Source: an uncultured Pseudomonadota bacterium (lineage in GTDB: Bacteria; Pseudomonadota; Alphaproteobacteria; UBA9219). From it: 58,709 nt of DNA. A program made the translations under genes and the position numbers. The stretch lies in NCBI GenBank assembly GCA_903919315.1, contig CAIXHP010000068.1:1-58709 (forward strand), given 5' to 3'. The number at the start of each line of letters is the position of its first letter. Position 1 is the first letter of the stretch. Below the pieces are notes generated by a model that did no database searches, was not told where the DNA came from, and was given only the letters and a program-made list of their open reading frames with translations. Shown one piece after another: positions 5,852 to 40,366 of this stretch.

Positions 5852-6133
5852 ATGAATATTCTATCATTGGCAAAAACAGCAGCCCTATCGCTCACCATCG
5901 CCGTCAGCCCTCAGGCGCTTGCCTATAAATTGAGTGGTCGTAGCGTGGACGAAGCAATAAGAAACGGTCTACCAGGATACGAATGCTGCACGGGCTGCTC
6001 GTGTTCCAATTCTAAGCTTATCATTGTTGCGCCGGAAGCGGTTCCGCCCACACAAGGTCGCCCCAGATTTGACGCGGCCAGAGCAGCCAATGAAGCGCGG
6101 CAGCGCGCCCAACGAAACCGCATGCAACGATAA
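5852..6133 (+). CDS. Small exported Cys-rich protein, unknown function
   Basis: This 93-residue protein has a clear Sec signal peptide: MNILSLAKTAALSLTIAV, then SPQALA with a probable cut after ALA near residue 24. The mature part has a compact cysteine group (YECCTGCSCSN, four Cys at about 50-56) and an Arg/Gln/Ala-rich tail ending RNRMQR. The Cys group could bind metal or form disulfides; no family was recognised. It is the first of three orphan genes between divergent clpB and the glycosylation cassette. A TATAAT box precedes it, so it is probably its own transcription unit. Confidence 0.6.
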   Translation: MNILSLAKTAALSLTIAVSPQALAYKLSGRSVDEAIRNGLPGYECCTGCSCSNSKLIIVAPEAVPPTQGRPRFDAARAANEARQRAQRNRMQR

Positions 6134-6215
6134 TTGCATAAGATAGCTTTGACTTAAGATCGGATCAAAGCGCGCCGACAGCAACTCGCTGTTGATCACC
6201 AGAAAGTCCCTAAAC

Positions 6216-6596
6216 ATGAACAACCCCAGCGAAATCTTCTTACAAGAACTCGCCCGCCTCGCCGAACTGCGCGAAGCCTACGCCACCATGGGTGGCATGA
6301 GCCTTTTTGAAGCCAGCCAACTCCAGAGCCAGCTGGATAGGCAATCGCAAGATGAATTTGAACAACGCTGCCGCGATCTGCCTGATGATGCCAACGATGA
6401 AGCCCGACGCATACGCAGTGAAGTCGACGCCGCCGCTGGTCGCGAGTTCACGACGCGCTTTGTTTTTCCGTTTTCGTCCCGTTTGGGAAAAGAACAACAA
6501 CTCGATGACGTTCTAGACGTCACACCCCACAATATTGTGCTGGAGTGCAGTTCCTCGTATCGGGCATGCTTTTACGACGGAACGGAACGGAACTAA
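6216..6596 (+). CDS. Hypothetical protein, 126 residues
   Basis: The product MNNPSEIFLQELARL... is a charged, largely helical cytoplasmic protein with no signal peptide or membrane segment. Residues 1-70 are Gln/Glu/Leu-rich and could form a coiled coil. The rest ends in ECSSSYRACFYDGTERN. I chose ATG 6216 over an upstream in-frame TTG at 6192 because the protein then starts at its helical domain; neither start has a strong Shine-Dalgarno. No homologous family is recognised. An open frame in another phase begins before its end and contains the next gene. Confidence 0.5.
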   Translation: MNNPSEIFLQELARLAELREAYATMGGMSLFEASQLQSQLDRQSQDEFEQRCRDLPDDANDEARRIRSEVDAAAGREFTTRFVFPFSSRLGKEQQLDDVLDVTPHNIVLECSSSYRACFYDGTERN

Positions 6597-6661
6597 GACC
6601 CGGCAATCTGCCACAAAAAATCGCAACCGCTGGCCTAAATGGAACAACGCCAACGGAAAAA

Positions 6662-6931
6662 ATGAAGGACCTCTCGCGCATGCCCCAAGCGCTGGATGCG
6701 ATCATCGCCCAGCTTGAAGAGAGCAAGAGCAACCCAGCCATCTTCAGACCCGACGAAAACTATCGAGTGCAAGCGTTTGGAGGGCTATTGCAGGCCATGC
6801 GAACATCCGTCGCCACGCTGCTCGACCACCGCGACACGATACGGGAAGAACTGGGCCTCCCGCGTCTCACGCCGAAAACGCCACAGACACCCCGCGATGC
6901 AGCGGCGAAGCTCGCGCCTGCGCTGGGGTAG
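6662..6931 (+). CDS. Hypothetical protein, 89 residues, helical
   Basis: It starts MKDLSRMPQALDAIIAQLEE and continues with LLQAMRTSVATLLDHRDTIREELG, a predicted two-helix protein with a Pro-rich tail. GGA sits 6-8 bases before the ATG. The reading frame stays open upstream to a GTG at 6545 inside the preceding gene, but that part reads like out-of-frame sequence. It converges on the GtrA-like gene with only a few bases between stops. No function can be assigned. Confidence 0.4.
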   Translation: MKDLSRMPQALDAIIAQLEESKSNPAIFRPDENYRVQAFGGLLQAMRTSVATLLDHRDTIREELGLPRLTPKTPQTPRDAAAKLAPALG

Positions 6932-16265: not shown

Positions 16266-18299
16266 ATGGCCCACGCAGAGCAAGCGCAGGAAAATCTTGG
16301 CAAAGCGCTGTCGCTTGGCGTGAAGGTGGACGTGTATCCGGATTTGCCCTTGCCAGAGCTTAACGGCGCGGGCGGCCCGGCCTTTGCCGCCAAGATGCGC
16401 GGGGATGGCCGCTCCGACCTTATGGCCGTAATCTGCACGTCGGGTCTGCCCGCGCGGTTCGATCTGGTCAACGCCATGCGCACCATCGACAACCCCAGCG
16501 TGCTGAGGCTGCGTGAAAACGGCGTGATCCACTGGCCCGCGCAAAACGCCCACTACTACGCTCTGGCCTACGAACGGCCCTTGGCGCCGCGCTATCGGCA
16601 CACCATCGACGACACATTCCCGCCGATGAGCGAAGATGCCATCAACCACTATTTCGTCACGCCCATGATCGGCGCGTTGCTGGAATTCCAACGCACCGGT
16701 ATCGTGCATGGGGCCATCCGCCCGACCAATATCTTTTGGCGCGACGGCGGCGCGACCGCGCCACAACTGGGCGAATGCCTGTCCTCCCCGGCGGGCATCG
16801 GCCAGCCTGTGCTGTTCGAAACCATCGAACGCGGCATGAGCCTGCCGATCGGTCGCGGCCCCGGCTCGCATGTGGACGACACCTATGCCTTTGGAGTCAT
16901 GCTGGCGCTGATGGTGGTGGGACGCAACCCGTTGCAAGGCATGGACGACAACGCCATCCTGCAAGCCAAAATGGCGCACGGCAGCTTCAACACCCTCGTC
17001 AGCAACACGCGGCTCGCCGCCTCGCATATCGAGCTGCTGCGCGGCTTGCTCAGCGACGACTCGCGCCAGCGCTGGGTAGCCTCCGATTTGGAACAATGGC
17101 AGGCAGGCCGCCGCCTCACGCCGAAAAGCACCGACTCGGGCCGCCGCGCCAGCCGCCACTTCCCGATTGGCGGCAAGGAATACTTCCAAGTCCGCCCGCT
17201 GGCCGCCGCGCTGGCCAGCAACGTTCCCGAAGCCGTCAAAATGATCGAAAACAGCAGCCTTGAGAAGTGGCTGCAACGGTCGCTCGGCGACGACGACCGC
17301 GCCAAGGAAGTCACGCAGGTCGTCGCCGAGTTGAAGGAAAGCGGCAAAACCGCGCATTTCGAAGACCAGTTGGTGACGCGCGTCTGCATCGCGCTCGACC
17401 CGACCGCGCCGATCCGCTACCGAGGCATCGCGGTCATGCCGGGCGGCATCGCGGCGATGCTGGCCGAAACGATGCTCACAGGCGGCAACCCGCAAATCCT
17501 CAGCGAGATCATCGCCAGCCAATTCTCGACCGCCTGGGTCAATCTGCAAAAAGAAGTCAAGACCGAGATGGTGCCGATGGCGCAGCAGCTCGAACGCATG
17601 CGCAGCGTCATCGAAAAAACAAGCTTCGGCAACGGAATCGAACGCGCCACCTATGACCTGAACCCCACGCTGCCCTGCCTGAGCCCCATGCTGCGCGGCC
17701 AGTACGTCACGACCGCCAAGCAAGTCCTGACCGCGCTGGAATATATCGCAACACAGCCCAACCGCCCCCGCGAACCGATGGATCGGCACATCGCCGCCTT
17801 TTTAATCGTGCGCGACCGGCGCAGCGACCTTCTGTTCGAAGCCATGTCCTCGCCCGAAGGCTCGCTTCGTCGCGGCATGGCCATGCTGGCGCTCTACAGC
17901 GAGCTGCAATACCGCCACGGCCCCGATCAGGCTCCGGCACTGGCGGCATGGCTGCTGCCACTGATCGAACCGGCCATCCGCCGCTTTCTGAGCAAACCGT
18001 ATCAGGAAAAAATCCGCCAGCAGGTTAAAAGCGCCGTCGAACACGGCAACCTCGACATGCTGCAAAAACTGGTGGACGATCCCAAGCGCATCGAACACGA
18101 CGAAGTAAGCTTCCTTCAAGCCCGCCGCATGTATCAGGACATCACGCGCGAAATCGCTTCGCTCGAAGAACGGCTCGGCAACCGCGACCGGGTTGCGTTG
18201 GTGGTCGGTCGCCCGTGGGCCGCCACCATCGCCAGCGCCCTATCCATATTGCTGATTTCCTTCGCCGCCGTCCGCGCCATCCTGCATCATCTGGAGTAG
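16266..18299 (+). CDS. Tail-anchored protein-kinase-like protein, probable pseudokinase
   Basis: Residues about 20-270 follow a Ser/Thr kinase fold, but the catalytic residues are absent. MAVIC (53-57) stands where VAIK would put Lys, HGAIRPTN (148-155) replaces HRDLKPxN, and LGE (168-170) replaces DFG. The structural segment VDDTYAFGVMLALMVVGRNPL (about 203-223) matches the kinase D-x-x-S/A-x-G-x-x-x helix. Residues 290-640 are helical with no known domain. A single hydrophobic segment near 650-670 lies at the very C-terminus, so the kinase-like domain should face the cytoplasm. A small membrane-protein gene follows 4 bp later, then clpS. No phosphorylation activity is expected; scaffolding or regulation is inference. 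Confidence 0.75.
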   Translation: MAHAEQAQENLGKALSLGVKVDVYPDLPLPELNGAGGPAFAAKMRGDGRSDLMAVICTSGLPARFDLVNAMRTIDNPSVLRLRENGVIHWPAQNAHYYALAYERPLAPRYRHTIDDTFPPMSEDAINHYFVTPMIGALLEFQRTGIVHGAIRPTNIFWRDGGATAPQLGECLSSPAGIGQPVLFETIERGMSLPIGRGPGSHVDDTYAFGVMLALMVVGRNPLQGMDDNAILQAKMAHGSFNTLVSNTRLAASHIELLRGLLSDDSRQRWVASDLEQWQAGRRLTPKSTDSGRRASRHFPIGGKEYFQVRPLAAALASNVPEAVKMIENSSLEKWLQRSLGDDDRAKEVTQVVAELKESGKTAHFEDQLVTRVCIALDPTAPIRYRGIAVMPGGIAAMLAETMLTGGNPQILSEIIASQFSTAWVNLQKEVKTEMVPMAQQLERMRSVIEKTSFGNGIERATYDLNPTLPCLSPMLRGQYVTTAKQVLTALEYIATQPNRPREPMDRHIAAFLIVRDRRSDLLFEAMSSPEGSLRRGMAMLALYSELQYRHGPDQAPALAAWLLPLIEPAIRRFLSKPYQEKIRQQVKSAVEHGNLDMLQKLVDDPKRIEHDEVSFLQARRMYQDITREIASLEERLGNRDRVALVVGRPWAATIASALSILLISFAAVRAILHHLE

Positions 18300-24664: not shown

Positions 24665-26734
24665 ATGCGCCGCTTGCTGTTGCTTCTGCTCACCCTCTTG
24701 GCCGCCGCACCCCACCCCGCGCAAGCGGCGGCTAGCGCGTGGCAGCGCGATGCCGACGCAGGCGCGCGCCTGATCGCGGCGACGGACGCCACCGGCGCGG
24801 AAACGAGCCTTTCGCTTGGCCTTGAGATCGACCTCGCCCCCGGCTGGCATACCTATTGGCGGTCGCCGGGCGATGCCGGACTGCCGCCCCAACTCGACTG
24901 GAAAGCCAGCCAGACCGCCGAAGGCAATCTGCAAAACGCCGACCTCCTCTACCCCGCCCCACGCCGTTACAGCGCGTTGGGTATGGAAACCATCGGCTAC
25001 CGCGACCACGTCGTGTTCCCGATCAACGCGCAACTTCGCGCCCCCGACCAGCCCCTGAGGCTGGAGGCAAATCTGGATCTCTTGGTCTGCAGCGACATCT
25101 GCGTGCCCAAACATTTCACGCTACGCCTCGACCTGCCCTCCGGCGAAGCCGCGCCGAGCGCCGAAGCGGCCCTCATCGAGAAAGCCCGTGCCCAAGTGCC
25201 GGGCGATGCGCAAAAGTCTGGCCTGACCATCACCTCGGTGCAACGCCAAACCGAAACGCTAAAAATCGCGATAGCCGGACGCGCCCCCCTGATCGATCCT
25301 GACCTCTTCATCGAAACAGATGAAAACATCGCCTTTGACAAGCCCAATATCGTCGTCGGCGCGGACAAACACACTGCCGCCTTCACGCTGAAACCCTTGG
25401 GCACGCTTCCCAAAGGCATCACGCTGGCAACCCTGCCGTTTACCGTGACCGTCGTGGATGGCGACCGTGCGCTGGAGCAAAAACTGGATGAAACCTTCAT
25501 CGCCCCAAGCGCGAACGTCCAACCGGAAGGCACCGCGCTGGGCTGCATCCTGCTGATCGCGCTCCTCGGCGGCTTTATTCTAAATCTGATGCCATGCGTC
25601 CTTCCTGTTCTGTCCTTGAAAATTCTCAGCGTCATCAGTCACGGTGGCGGCGCAAAACGCGACGTGCGGCGCTCCTTCCTGATGACGGCGGCGGGCATCC
25701 TGTTTTCCTTCCTCGCGCTGGCGGGCGCAACCATCGCGCTCAAACAGGCCGGACACGCCATCGGCTGGGGCGTGCAATTTCAGCAACCGGTGTTTCTGGT
25801 GCTGCTCATTGTCGTCCTGACCTTTTTCGCCGCCAGCCTATGGGGCTTTCTCGACATTCCTCTGCCGCGCTTTTTGGCCGATCGGCTCGATCCGCGCTAT
25901 CACCCCAAACGCGCAGGCGACTTTTTCTCCGGAGCCTTCGCCACGCTGCTCGCCACGCCTTGCACCGCGCCGTTTCTCGGCACCGCCGTCGGCTTCGCGC
26001 TCGCGTCCGGGCCGCGCGATATTTTGCTGGTCTTTGCGGCGCTGGGCCTCGGCATGACCTTGCCCTACCTCGCCATCGCGCTCTGGCCGCGCCTCGCGAC
26101 GATGTTCCCGCGACCGGGCAAATGGATGGTCACGCTGCGTCATCTCTTGGGCTGGGCGCTGGCTTTGACCGCACTGTGGCTGATGTGGGTTCTGGCGGGC
26201 GAAACCGCCCTCGCCTACGTCGTCGCCCTCGGCAGTTGCATGCTGGCGTTGCTCGCCCTGCTGCACGGACGCAAGCGGGGGCGGTTTCCGGCCTTCCTGC
26301 GTTCCGGCATCGTGGTGCTGCTGGCGCTCGCGTTCGCCGCCGCGCTGATGACCGCCACGCCGTCGAATCCATCAACCGCCAACTGGCAGCCCTTTGACGA
26401 AAGCGCCATAGCGCGTCATGTCGCCGAAGGCAAAACCGTGTTCGTCGACGTCACCGCCGACTGGTGCCTCACCTGCAAAGCGAACAAGAAATTCACGCTG
26501 GAACGCGAAGACATCACACGCCGTCTGTTCGCAACGCCGAACGTGATCGCGATGCAAGCCGATTGGACGAACCCCGACCCCGTCATCGCCGCCTTTCTGA
26601 AAAAATTTGGGCGCTATGGCATTCCTTTTAATGTGGTCTTTGGGCCATCCTTGCCGAATGGCCTTGTTCTCTCTGAGCTTTTAACGCCACGCGCCGTCAA
26701 AGACGGTTTGGCGCGCGCCGAAAAAAAGCCATAG
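24665..26734 (+). CDS. ScsB/DsbD-like thiol:disulfide interchange protein
   Basis: This 689-residue protein carries electrons from cytoplasmic thioredoxin to periplasmic partners. A signal peptide ([15 protein letters not shown]...AQA) leads into a periplasmic DsbD-alpha-like domain (about 25-280) of the ScsB type. An eight-helix DsbD-beta membrane domain follows, with redox Cys in [10 protein letters not shown] (near 310) and [10 protein letters not shown] (near 430). The C-terminal thioredoxin domain has DWCLTCKAN near 600. All three Cys pairs or positions expected for electron relay are present. The periplasmic acceptor is not in the window. The gene diverges from alaS. Confidence 0.9.
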
Positions 26735-37101: not shown

Positions 37102-37301
37102 AAAAAGTCAGCGCGAGCCGGAGAAAAGGATTTAAAAAAAACAGGATTCCCGCCCGCACAGGCGCGACGAAATTTGCCTTTAAATTCAATTATCTATCGT
37201 CACCCCCGCGAAAGCGGGGATCCCGTTTGGTTTCTTCTTTCAGACTCTATCACACAACGTCAGCGCCCCGCCTTTGTCAGCCCTGAAGACCCGTGTTTTC
37301 C
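37102..37301. other. Non-coding gap with REP-like hairpin
   Basis: I see no gene in this AT-rich stretch between the solute-binding protein and the ankyrin island. The notable element is the hairpin CCCCGC-GAAA-GCGGGG at about 37204-37219, followed by ATCCCGTTTGG. It is the familiar small palindrome type scattered in alphaproteobacterial genomes. It is followed by T-rich sequence and could also weakly terminate transcription. Confidence 0.5.
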
Positions 37302-37330
37302 TTGATTGGAATATAGTTGCGTGATACAAT
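37302..37330 (+). promoter_or_regulatory. Sigma-70-like promoter of the first island gene
   Basis: TTGATT (37302-37307) and TACAAT (37325-37330) are separated by exactly 17 bases. The start codon at 37432 lies about 100 bases downstream, leaving a leader of about 95 nt that shows no recognised structure. This is the clearest housekeeping-type promoter in the window. Confidence 0.6.
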
Positions 37331-37431: not shown

Positions 37432-38337
37432 ATGCTAACAAGCGACGAAAACCGCTCATTCCACCGCATCTCGCAAGCCATTTTTCTGGCCATAGCGGTC
37501 GCAAGTGTCAGACCACACGCAGCACCAACCCTCGACACCGAACTGGACCGCGTTCTCGACCGAACCCCCTCGGCGGTACAGATCACCGATATGCAAAGAG
37601 AAAGCGCCCTAACCGCGTTTAATGCGGTTCTGAACAAACATCGGGACGAGCCTCGCGATGTAATGACTTACTACTCTGCCTTTTCTGCGGCGATCACGAT
37701 AGGCGATCTGAGGTTTGCGCGTGCGCTGGAACAAGATTCCACAGAGATGTCCCCGGTGGCCCAAAGCCTCGCGCTTGTTGGAGCCTTGCGAGGCACGACA
37801 AATCTCGCAAACGACCTATACTTTACGAATGCCCCCCCGGAAACAGTCAAGAGAGTTGAGTCACAAGCCCGTGATCAGCTCGACACCCTGTTGCGCGACT
37901 ATATCTCGCCTCAAGTCGTAGATTCGTTCGAGGCCTTCGAGAGCGCCTTTGAAAAAGGACCGGAAGTCTATGTTTTCGAAGCGTTAACAGCGCGCGGCTT
38001 TAATCCGAAAGCCATAAGCACTGAGGCAACCTACAGAATGACCGGAAATCAAGGAGAAGTGGCCAAGGGCAGCACGCTCTTGCATGTTGCGGCGCTGTAT
38101 GGAGATGAAAATACAGCCAAATTTCTCCTGCAACGCGGTGTTGACCCCACGATCATAAACAACGACGGCAAGACGGCCGCCGATGTAGCCCGCGAATACA
38201 ACATGCCCGATCTCGCCGTCACGTTGGATGCCGCTGCAAAAGCCAGCGCGATGGACAGGACACCCACAAGCCGTAATCCCTTTGCCAACACGCTGCAGCT
38301 ACTACAAAAATATCCCCACAAACCAACGATGGGCTAA
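37432..38337 (+). CDS. Exported ankyrin-repeat protein, island gene 1
   Basis: This 301-residue protein has a charged start and a hydrophobic run (QAIFLAIAVASVRPHAA) that looks like a signal peptide cut near residue 32. The N-module (about 33-200) is helical with no known family. The ankyrin part (about 218-275) reads GSTLLHVAALYGDENTAKFLLQRGVDPTIINNDGKTAADVAREY, two repeats. Gene 2 has the same order and similar motifs (DLGSELDAFE vs TLDTELDRV; GSTLLHFAAYARDD). AAGGA lies 12 bases before the ATG. GC content is visibly lower than in the flanking housekeeping genes. Function unknown; secretion to the periplasm is likely. Confidence 0.65.
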   Translation: MLTSDENRSFHRISQAIFLAIAVASVRPHAAPTLDTELDRVLDRTPSAVQITDMQRESALTAFNAVLNKHRDEPRDVMTYYSAFSAAITIGDLRFARALEQDSTEMSPVAQSLALVGALRGTTNLANDLYFTNAPPETVKRVESQARDQLDTLLRDYISPQVVDSFEAFESAFEKGPEVYVFEALTARGFNPKAISTEATYRMTGNQGEVAKGSTLLHVAALYGDENTAKFLLQRGVDPTIINNDGKTAADVAREYNMPDLAVTLDAAAKASAMDRTPTSRNPFANTLQLLQKYPHKPTMG

Positions 38338-38455
38338 CACGAAACCGACGATGGCCCCCGGCAGAACATGTCGCTGTCAATGACTTGAGGAGTTAAAGAA
38401 CATCTATTCGGCACAACAAAGCCATTGTTTCTGATTTTTTAGAAACTAGTTATAA

Positions 38456-39745
38456 ATGGTGCGAGAAATGTCAAAACGCTCAAATTACTCCTTTAAAAAC
38501 ATTACGCGAGCCTTTTGCATGGCCGGAGCGCTCCTTGTCGCGGCACCGCCTGCGGCGGCGGATCTGGGAAGCGAGCTGGATGCCTTTGAGAGCACCTACC
38601 TCAACGGATCAAGCGCCGAGTACCGCGCGGTCAGCGACAACCAACGACGCAGAGCCCGGACCGCCTTTGAAAGAATCCTGCGAAACCACAGCGGCGAACC
38701 GCTCGATGAAAGACTTGTCGCCACCGCCTATAGAACGGCGATGGGAACCGACAACCCCGATCTCGTCCATAATCTGAACAGCCATTACCCGTCCGAACTG
38801 CGGAACCACCAGAATACAGCCGTAGAGGCCGCCGCCGAAGGCATGCGATACGCCTCGAACCAGCGATTCGCGTCCGATAACGCAAAGGCTACGCCGGACA
38901 GAACGATGTCCGACATCGGAGCAACACTCGGCTCGCTTCTGAAGGACTATGCATCCAAAGATGCCCTTGACCGCACCCAAGCTTTTACCGACGCCTTTAT
39001 GAAAGGCGACGGCTACGATACAATGAAACCCTTGTTGGATTTGGGCCTCGACCCCAACTTCCGTACCGATGAGACAATTGACGATCTGTCATCGCGCGGA
39101 GGCGATGTCGCGGCTGGCAGCACGCTTCTGCATTTCGCCGCGTATGCAAGAGACGATACCGCCGTCGAAGCCCTGCTAAAGCTAGGCCTTGACCCCACCG
39201 TCAAGAACCAGGACGGAAAGACGGCCGCCGACATCGCCAGAGAAGAAGACCTGCCGCAGATCGCGGCCATTTTGGACGAAGCCACCGCCGTGATCGAAGA
39301 AAAAAAACGCGCCGCGCAAAAAAAGGTGCCTCCAGCCATCGGCAAATACACGCAGGTAGTCTATGCCCTCCAGCCCGCCAACGGCCTGCCCGAACCTTAC
39401 CTCGCCACAGTGGCGCACGACACCCGTCCCTGCGAATACAGCGCGCCGGAGTGCACAGGCATCATGGCGCTGCATATCGATTTGGAACACAACAAATACG
39501 GTGTCGTACGCGCCAACGACCAATTGGCCGTAACGGTCACAATGGCAGGCGTTTTCGCCTCCGTCATTCCTGCGGAATACCAAAAACTTCCCACAAGCGA
39601 ACAACTGGCCATTGCGCAAAACGCCCGGAAAATCGTGGACGGCGCGGCGGCAAAGCACGGCCTGCTGACAACCGCAACCCCGACGCGCCCCAACGCCCCT
39701 AAGACCGTGGCGGGCACCGCACAAAAAATGCAACCCGGCGGATAG
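38456..39745 (+). CDS. Exported ankyrin-repeat protein with extra C-module, island gene 2
   Basis: This 429-residue paralogue of gene 1 has a signal peptide (FCMAGALLVAAPPAAA, cut near 38), an N-module, and ankyrin repeats at about 220-270 (GSTLLHFAAYARDDTAVEAL, DGKTAADIAREEDLP). A C-module follows from about 295 (GKYTQVVYALQPANGLPEPY ... CEYSAPECTGIMALHIDLEH ... MAGVFASVIPAEYQKLPTS). The C-module also forms nearly all of gene 3. Two Cys in CEYSAPEC could form a disulfide. In-frame ATGs at 38456 and 38468 are both possible. No homologous family recognised for the N- or C-module. Confidence 0.65.
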   Translation: MVREMSKRSNYSFKNITRAFCMAGALLVAAPPAAADLGSELDAFESTYLNGSSAEYRAVSDNQRRRARTAFERILRNHSGEPLDERLVATAYRTAMGTDNPDLVHNLNSHYPSELRNHQNTAVEAAAEGMRYASNQRFASDNAKATPDRTMSDIGATLGSLLKDYASKDALDRTQAFTDAFMKGDGYDTMKPLLDLGLDPNFRTDETIDDLSSRGGDVAAGSTLLHFAAYARDDTAVEALLKLGLDPTVKNQDGKTAADIAREEDLPQIAAILDEATAVIEEKKRAAQKKVPPAIGKYTQVVYALQPANGLPEPYLATVAHDTRPCEYSAPECTGIMALHIDLEHNKYGVVRANDQLAVTVTMAGVFASVIPAEYQKLPTSEQLAIAQNARKIVDGAAAKHGLLTTATPTRPNAPKTVAGTAQKMQPGG

Positions 39746-39817
39746 GCAAAACACCTGCGGCACGGCCCTTCATACCGCCGACGTGATGAGAAACTTGAGG
39801 ACAAGAGAACACCAAAG

Positions 39818-40366
39818 ATGACCAAAGCCGACAACAAAGCCCTCCCCCGTATCGTGACAGCCTTTCTGGCCGCCACACCCCTCTTTGCCACGCAGAATTT
39901 GGCCGCTGGCCAGACCCCGCCCCCCGACCTCGCGCGAAGCACGCCCGGAATAGAATCGGCACCGCCCGACTTCGGCCCCTACACGCAGGTTGTCTATTCC
40001 GTCCAGCCCGAAACCGGTATCGATCAAAGTCTTTTCCCCATCATGGCGCGCGAACTCCAACCCTGCGCCTACAGCCAATGCCCCGGCATGGCGCTTTATA
40101 TGGAGCCCAGCAAAAAATATGGTGTCGCGCGCAAAAACGACGGATTTGCCGCAACGGTCACCGCCGCCGGTGTCTTCGCCACCGTGGATCCAGGCATCTA
40201 CAACAACCTCCCCACAAGCCAACAATTGCAACTCAAGGAAACAGCCCAACAGCTTGTCGACCGCGTCGTCGCTATAACCAAAATTTTACACGCGCCAGCC
40301 CGCCCCGACACCACGCCGCAACCAATCGTCTACCAGAAGCTTGAGAACGAGGACTACTCCCCCTAG
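39818..40366 (+). CDS. Exported single C-module protein, island gene 3
   Basis: The 182-residue product has a signal peptide (LPRIVTAFLAATPLFATQ...) and then the same module as the end of gene 2: GPYTQVVYSVQPETGIDQ, CAYSQCPGMALYMEPSKKYG, TAAGVFATVDPGIYNNLPTS, and QLVDRVV. The two Cys are again in CxxxxC-like spacing. It has no ankyrin repeats. It lies 72 bp after gene 2 and may be co-transcribed. Function unknown. Confidence 0.6.
   Translation: MTKADNKALPRIVTAFLAATPLFATQNLAAGQTPPPDLARSTPGIESAPPDFGPYTQVVYSVQPETGIDQSLFPIMARELQPCAYSQCPGMALYMEPSKKYGVARKNDGFAATVTAAGVFATVDPGIYNNLPTSQQLQLKETAQQLVDRVVAITKILHAPARPDTTPQPIVYQKLENEDYSP

Follow-up and report, generated by a model that had tools for sequence, protein, structure and literature searches.

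Three modular paralogues with predicted leaders, two of them with ankyrin regions, upstream of mraZ in an uncultured alphaproteobacterium: a probable case of tandem duplication and part loss

What are the three genes that stand just upstream of mraZ in an uncultured Pseudomonadota bacterium (Alphaproteobacteria; UBA9219), and how did they come to have their parts in common? The window analyzed here is a stretch of 58,709 nucleotides (assembly GCA_903919315.1, contig CAIXHP010000068.1), and its positions 37432-40366 hold three intact ORFs on one strand (+, as for all the features of the set given below) that form a series of modular paralogues. Gene 1 (ATG 37432-stop 38337, 301 aa) encodes a signal-peptide-like leader, a part that we call the N-module and an ankyrin region, and its product contains no cysteine. 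Gene 2 (ATG 38468-stop 39745, 425 aa, with an alternative in-frame start, ATG, at 38456) encodes a leader, the N-module, the ankyrin region and also a C-module, and gene 3 (ATG 39818-stop 40366, 182 aa) encodes a leader and the C-module.

The spacers measure 130 bp (gene 1/gene 2) and 72 bp (gene 2/gene 3), and a candidate sigma-70-type promoter with an extended -10, TTGATT-N17-TACAAT (37302..37330), in which TG precedes the second hexamer, is located ~100 bp 5' of gene 1. The promoter reported in the preliminary description is therefore present, but 'moderate' suits it better than 'strong', because it matches the consensus at 9/12 positions and is not exceptional, the region containing 4 promoter-like sites of that score against a chance expectation of 1.8 +/- 1.6. 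The common strand, the short spacers and a promoter-like site before gene 1 suggest that the three genes are co-transcribed. The spacer between genes 1 and 2 also contains an AT-rich inverted repeat, GTTTCT-GATTTTTT-AGAAAC (38427-38446), and a similar sequence, GTTTCTGGTTTATTAG, is found between gene 3 and mraZ (p 0.012); both are possible operators or terminators. Between the solute-binding gene that precedes the set and gene 1 there is a dispersed palindromic repeat, CGTCAYYCCCGCGAAAGCGGGRATCC (37198-37223), of which the genome has five exact copies (this one, one in C14, two in C35 and one in C58) and none of the reversed control.

The relation between the three genes was evident from their alignments, which bear out the architectures first proposed (N-module and ankyrin region; both of these and the C-module; C-module only), coordinates included. 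Gene 1 and gene 2 align over the leader, the N-module and the ankyrin region with 94/302 identical positions (31%, E 4e-34), and residues 288-409 of gene 2 are identical to gene 3 at 55/122 positions (45%, E 4e-29), so that the similarity of genes 2 and 3, on whose significance the preliminary description had made itself depend, is highly significant. The phrases by which the relation had been noticed (YTQVVY, CPGMALY/CTGIMALH, AGVFA and LPTS) were also located as claimed. Genes 1 and 3 gave no significant match when aligned with each other and have no module in common, and a genome-wide six-frame search with gene 2 as query matched only gene 1 (E 9e-34) and gene 3 (E 1e-24).

In gene 1 the ankyrin region is located at 38062..38235 (about residues 211-268), where Pfam Ank detects one strong repeat with 28.4 bits against a cut-off of 21.1 (E 1.8e-6). 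In gene 2 it is located at 39017..39292 (about residues 184-275), as defined by an Ank_5/Ank_2 stretch over residues ~183 to ~269 (Ank_5 31.0 against a cut-off of 27) and by structure comparison, residues 216-273 of the model fitting a designed ankyrin repeat protein with 0.9 A rmsd. The ankyrin content is one clear repeat plus partial or capping repeat(s) picked up by the Ank models of greater length, with an E of about 1e-6, and only two or three repeats are recognizable. Gene 3 matches no Pfam family and hence has no ankyrin domain.

If the N-module were a worn ankyrin solenoid, genes 1 and 2 would encode ordinary secreted ankyrin proteins, and the C-module would be the one unfamiliar part of the set. 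In favor of this reading, the Ank_2 match of gene 2 reaches as far up as residue 183, and the full-length model of gene 2 aligns with ankyrin solenoids over ~residues 78-284 at Z 10-13. However, this is a low-confidence model (mean pLDDT 55, and 40-67 over the N-module), and the comparison tool itself warns that, for helical repeats, values of Z under about 13 are weak. Furthermore, an ankyrin consensus scan of the N-module (residues 31-180) was not above shuffles either singly or jointly (best joint score 2 against a 95% null of 15), and the N-module alone did not match Ank at E 10. We regard a worn solenoid as a serious possibility, although a somewhat improbable one. A match of the N-module profile to BamD (E 0.33) was dismissed as chance.

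The C-module (39329..39694 in gene 2, residues 288-409, by alignment with gene 3; 39962..40309 in gene 3, residues 49-164) is predicted to adopt a beta-alpha-beta4-alpha fold, with a pLDDT of 70-86 over most of the core. Structure searches with this model gave matches at noise level (a Z of 6.8 at best, and in Foldseek a lowest E of 6.7e-3 at a TM of 0.35), and against viral structures there was no match at E 0.001. The order of strands and helices is loosely like that of TBP-like or helix-grip alpha/beta domains such as the BamC N-domain, DUF4468 or Flpp3 (Z 5.5-6.5), but these scores are within the noise band and there is no sequence relation. A pair of cysteines is kept in both C-modules (Cys322/Cys329 in gene 2 and Cys83/Cys88 in gene 3) and may form a disulfide; the window also codes for a DsbD-like protein (24665-26734).

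Neither module had been recognized in the preliminary description, and this still stands: no match was obtained for them in Pfam, NCBIfam, PHROGs, PADLOC or the PDB sequences, and the profile searches did not identify either as a known common domain. Apart from the genome itself, the C-module profile detected no homolog in 24 family, 33 order, 385 class and 398 phylum genomes, nor did the N-module profile in 24 family and 398 phylum genomes, these samples overlapping and including the own genome, and the profiles consisting of two rows each, with which distant relatives may be missed. When whole gene 2 was searched against 190 genomes, the matches outside its own genome were ankyrin stretches only. 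A peptide-pattern search of GTDB contigs and viral contigs gave none, plasmids contained no relative, and the one match among phages was to a protein of a Wolbachia phage, confined to its ankyrin stretch. PADLOC and PHROG revealed no relationship past the ankyrin stretch, to which matches with MzaA and PDC-M72A were also confined. Both modules are thus restricted to this genome among the genomes searched. The age of the set can be placed no closer than 'this genus', because the family sample contains no second species of the genus. The ClpB of this bacterium has 75% identity with that of Azospirillum replicons, which makes it a probable alphaproteobacterium on sequence grounds.

How the set arose had been described as module shuffling. 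In our opinion it is better read as the tandem duplication of an N-module-ankyrin-C-module gene followed by loss of parts, given that gene 2 is whole, that genes 1 and 3 represent its halves and that the leaders of genes 2 and 3 are alike, a similarity reached in 31/2000 shuffles (~p = 0.015). The ancestor would have had a leader, the N-module, the ankyrin region and the C-module, a form kept by gene 2; after a tandem duplication the gene 1 copy would have been left without the C-module, and a later copy, without the N-module and the ankyrin region, would have given rise to gene 3. For genes 1 and 2, the similarity of the leader alone was reached in 0/2000 shuffles. In the case of gene 3, the leader likeness, only suggestive as support for an origin from gene 2, and a ACTTGAGGA...AGAACA block that the spacers have in common (p 0.04) hint that it could be a gene 2 copy minus the middle and not a separate module donor. 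The gene 2/gene 3 duplication is the younger one, because identical residues of the C-module use the same codon in 36/54 cases against 23 expected (1/5000) and because dS is 0.81 for this pair, with synonymous sites unsaturated, against 1.40 for gene 1/gene 2. What counts against this account is the end of gene 1, where no significant C-module remnant was found behind the ankyrin region (p 0.22 and 0.08) and where simple loss might leave one. We consider the architecture and the evolutionary account, in which the order of events is deduced, to be quite probable.

Duplicates of this kind could also be functionless and heading for loss, a possibility with which the truncated architecture, the failure of the searches to find relatives and the GC3 of gene 1 (0.59, compared with 0.69-0.83 for the other window genes) would agree. 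Nevertheless, every frame is intact and has a leader, and both comparisons give a dN/dS of less than 1, namely 0.54 for gene 2/gene 3 (bootstrap range 0.37-0.81) and 0.52 for gene 1/gene 2 (0.36-0.66), and therefore both regions have been retained as protein. Decay is for these reasons very unlikely. The change of the proteins is fast but constrained by selection, and the low GC3 of gene 1 fits either late acquisition or fast change. If duplication and part loss is the right account, this would be a clean case of a lineage-specific exported set, derived from one gene by two duplications in which opposite halves were lost, with proteins that have changed about half as fast as expected under neutrality.

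Each of the three proteins has a hydrophobic N-terminus that ends in an AxA/AAA-like motif, with hydropathy maxima of 2.76, 2.35 and 1.95 for genes 1, 2 and 3, respectively (the leaders were scored by hydropathy only), and no lipobox was seen by eye in any of the three. The signal peptides previously attributed to them thus hold up as predicted leaders, and the most likely location of the proteins is the periplasm, reached via Sec. The n-region of the gene 1 leader has a net charge of 0, and this lack of a net positive charge counts against the export account. Ankyrin proteins are common among effectors, and the fast evolution of these proteins and their restriction to one lineage would also be expected if they were released outside the cell and acted on a host or prey. 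However, Sec-type leaders would take them to the periplasm or into a two-step route, genes 1 and 2 are the sole Ank_2 matches in the genome, unlike the situation in effector-rich symbionts, and effector models match the ankyrin stretch only (E 0.02-0.2), which makes such a function unlikely.

The set has hisS and a family-3 solute-binding protein gene (SBP_bac_3) on one side and, on the other, mraZ with the division and cell-wall cluster. In related genera the mraZ-mraW cluster is conserved while different genes occupy the slot before mraZ (loci L038-L052), often patatin-like ones, a name that comes from reading their sequences and not from a profile. The slot is a variable site adjoining a conserved cluster, and because of this variation the nearness of the set to cell-wall genes says little. 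Elsewhere in the window, three short ORFs (93, 134, and 128 aa) without a Pfam match are found at 5852-6931, the first of which encodes a leader like that of a signal peptide as well as a Cys-rich segment, YECCTGCSCSNS, and a 677-aa ORF at 16266-18299 has a weak protein-kinase match, below the cut-off (E 7.6e-4).

A toxin/immunity role had also been suggested for the set, and the related possibility of self-protection has a precedent in Bd3460 of the predator Bdellovibrio bacteriovorus, an exported ankyrin protein that shields the cell from its own endopeptidases (PMC4686830). Genes adjoining those of cell-wall synthesis could in principle guard this bacterium from a lytic enzyme of its own, but the site is variable in relatives, as indicated above, and no lytic enzyme, cell-wall hydrolase or toxin-like gene adjoins the set. 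Moreover, a search of this near-complete genome did not detect Peptidase S13, the family of the DD-endopeptidase target of Bd3460 (the control was positive in 8/14 genomes), and there is no PADLOC or PHROG match beyond ankyrin. Toxin/immunity is accordingly left unsupported, and we judge a toxin/immunity or self-protection set to be quite improbable.

The other role suggested in the preliminary description, protein interaction, is plausible by analogy with AnkB and Bd3460, and we tentatively propose, at somewhat less than an even chance, that the three proteins are a periplasmic partner-binding set, although no partner enzyme is encoded among the neighbors (hisS, SBP_bac_3 and mraZ). The observation that started this work is thus confirmed and its interpretation partly supported. 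In the proposed mechanism, the N-module and the ankyrin face would bind a target in the periplasm, and the C-module, predicted to be a small domain of alpha/beta type in which the cysteine pair is conserved, would contribute another function, either binding or modulation. Under this scheme gene 1 would serve for target binding only, gene 3 would provide the C-domain only and gene 2 would act as a bridge between both. Taken as a whole, a tandem duplication family of periplasmic partner-binding proteins is the best explanation that we can offer, and we believe its chances of being correct to be about even. A more speculative and rather unlikely extension would make the C-module a new exported domain, used by this lineage both free (gene 3) and tethered to an ankyrin target binder (gene 2), with gene 1, a binder without it, as a competitor; the three genes would then form a regulator by which a periplasmic enzyme, perhaps one of wall synthesis, could be tuned. 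If the best explanation holds, the C-module would add an exported domain for which the searches found no relative. The current view of ankyrin proteins in bacteria would stay as it is, because some that are exported and bind enzymes of the periplasm are already known.

The known exported ankyrin proteins act on enzymes of the periplasm by binding to them (PMC4686830; PMC10294975 and references therein). One of them, to which similar catalase-linked ankyrin proteins can be added, is AnkB of Pseudomonas aeruginosa, which is described as linked to a catalase and needed for its full activity (Howell 2000, cited in PMC10294975). Our set resembles the AnkB type in kind, that is, in an exported, periplasmic and small ankyrin protein, but AnkB is catalase-linked, whereas the set consists of three paralogues with additional N- and C-modules next to hisS, SBP_bac_3 and mraZ, and there is no catalase gene among its immediate neighbors. 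In the case of Bd3460, the exported part consists of six ankyrin repeats and the gene is located beside that of its endopeptidase target (PMC4686830), which differs from the fewer recognizable repeats found here and from the neighborhood of the set. Both have in common a leader, predicted to be of Sec type in our proteins, and an ankyrin region, and for both the suggested mode of action is the binding of a periplasmic enzyme. The set could work along the same lines as AnkB or Bd3460, the comparison being one of principle and not of membership.
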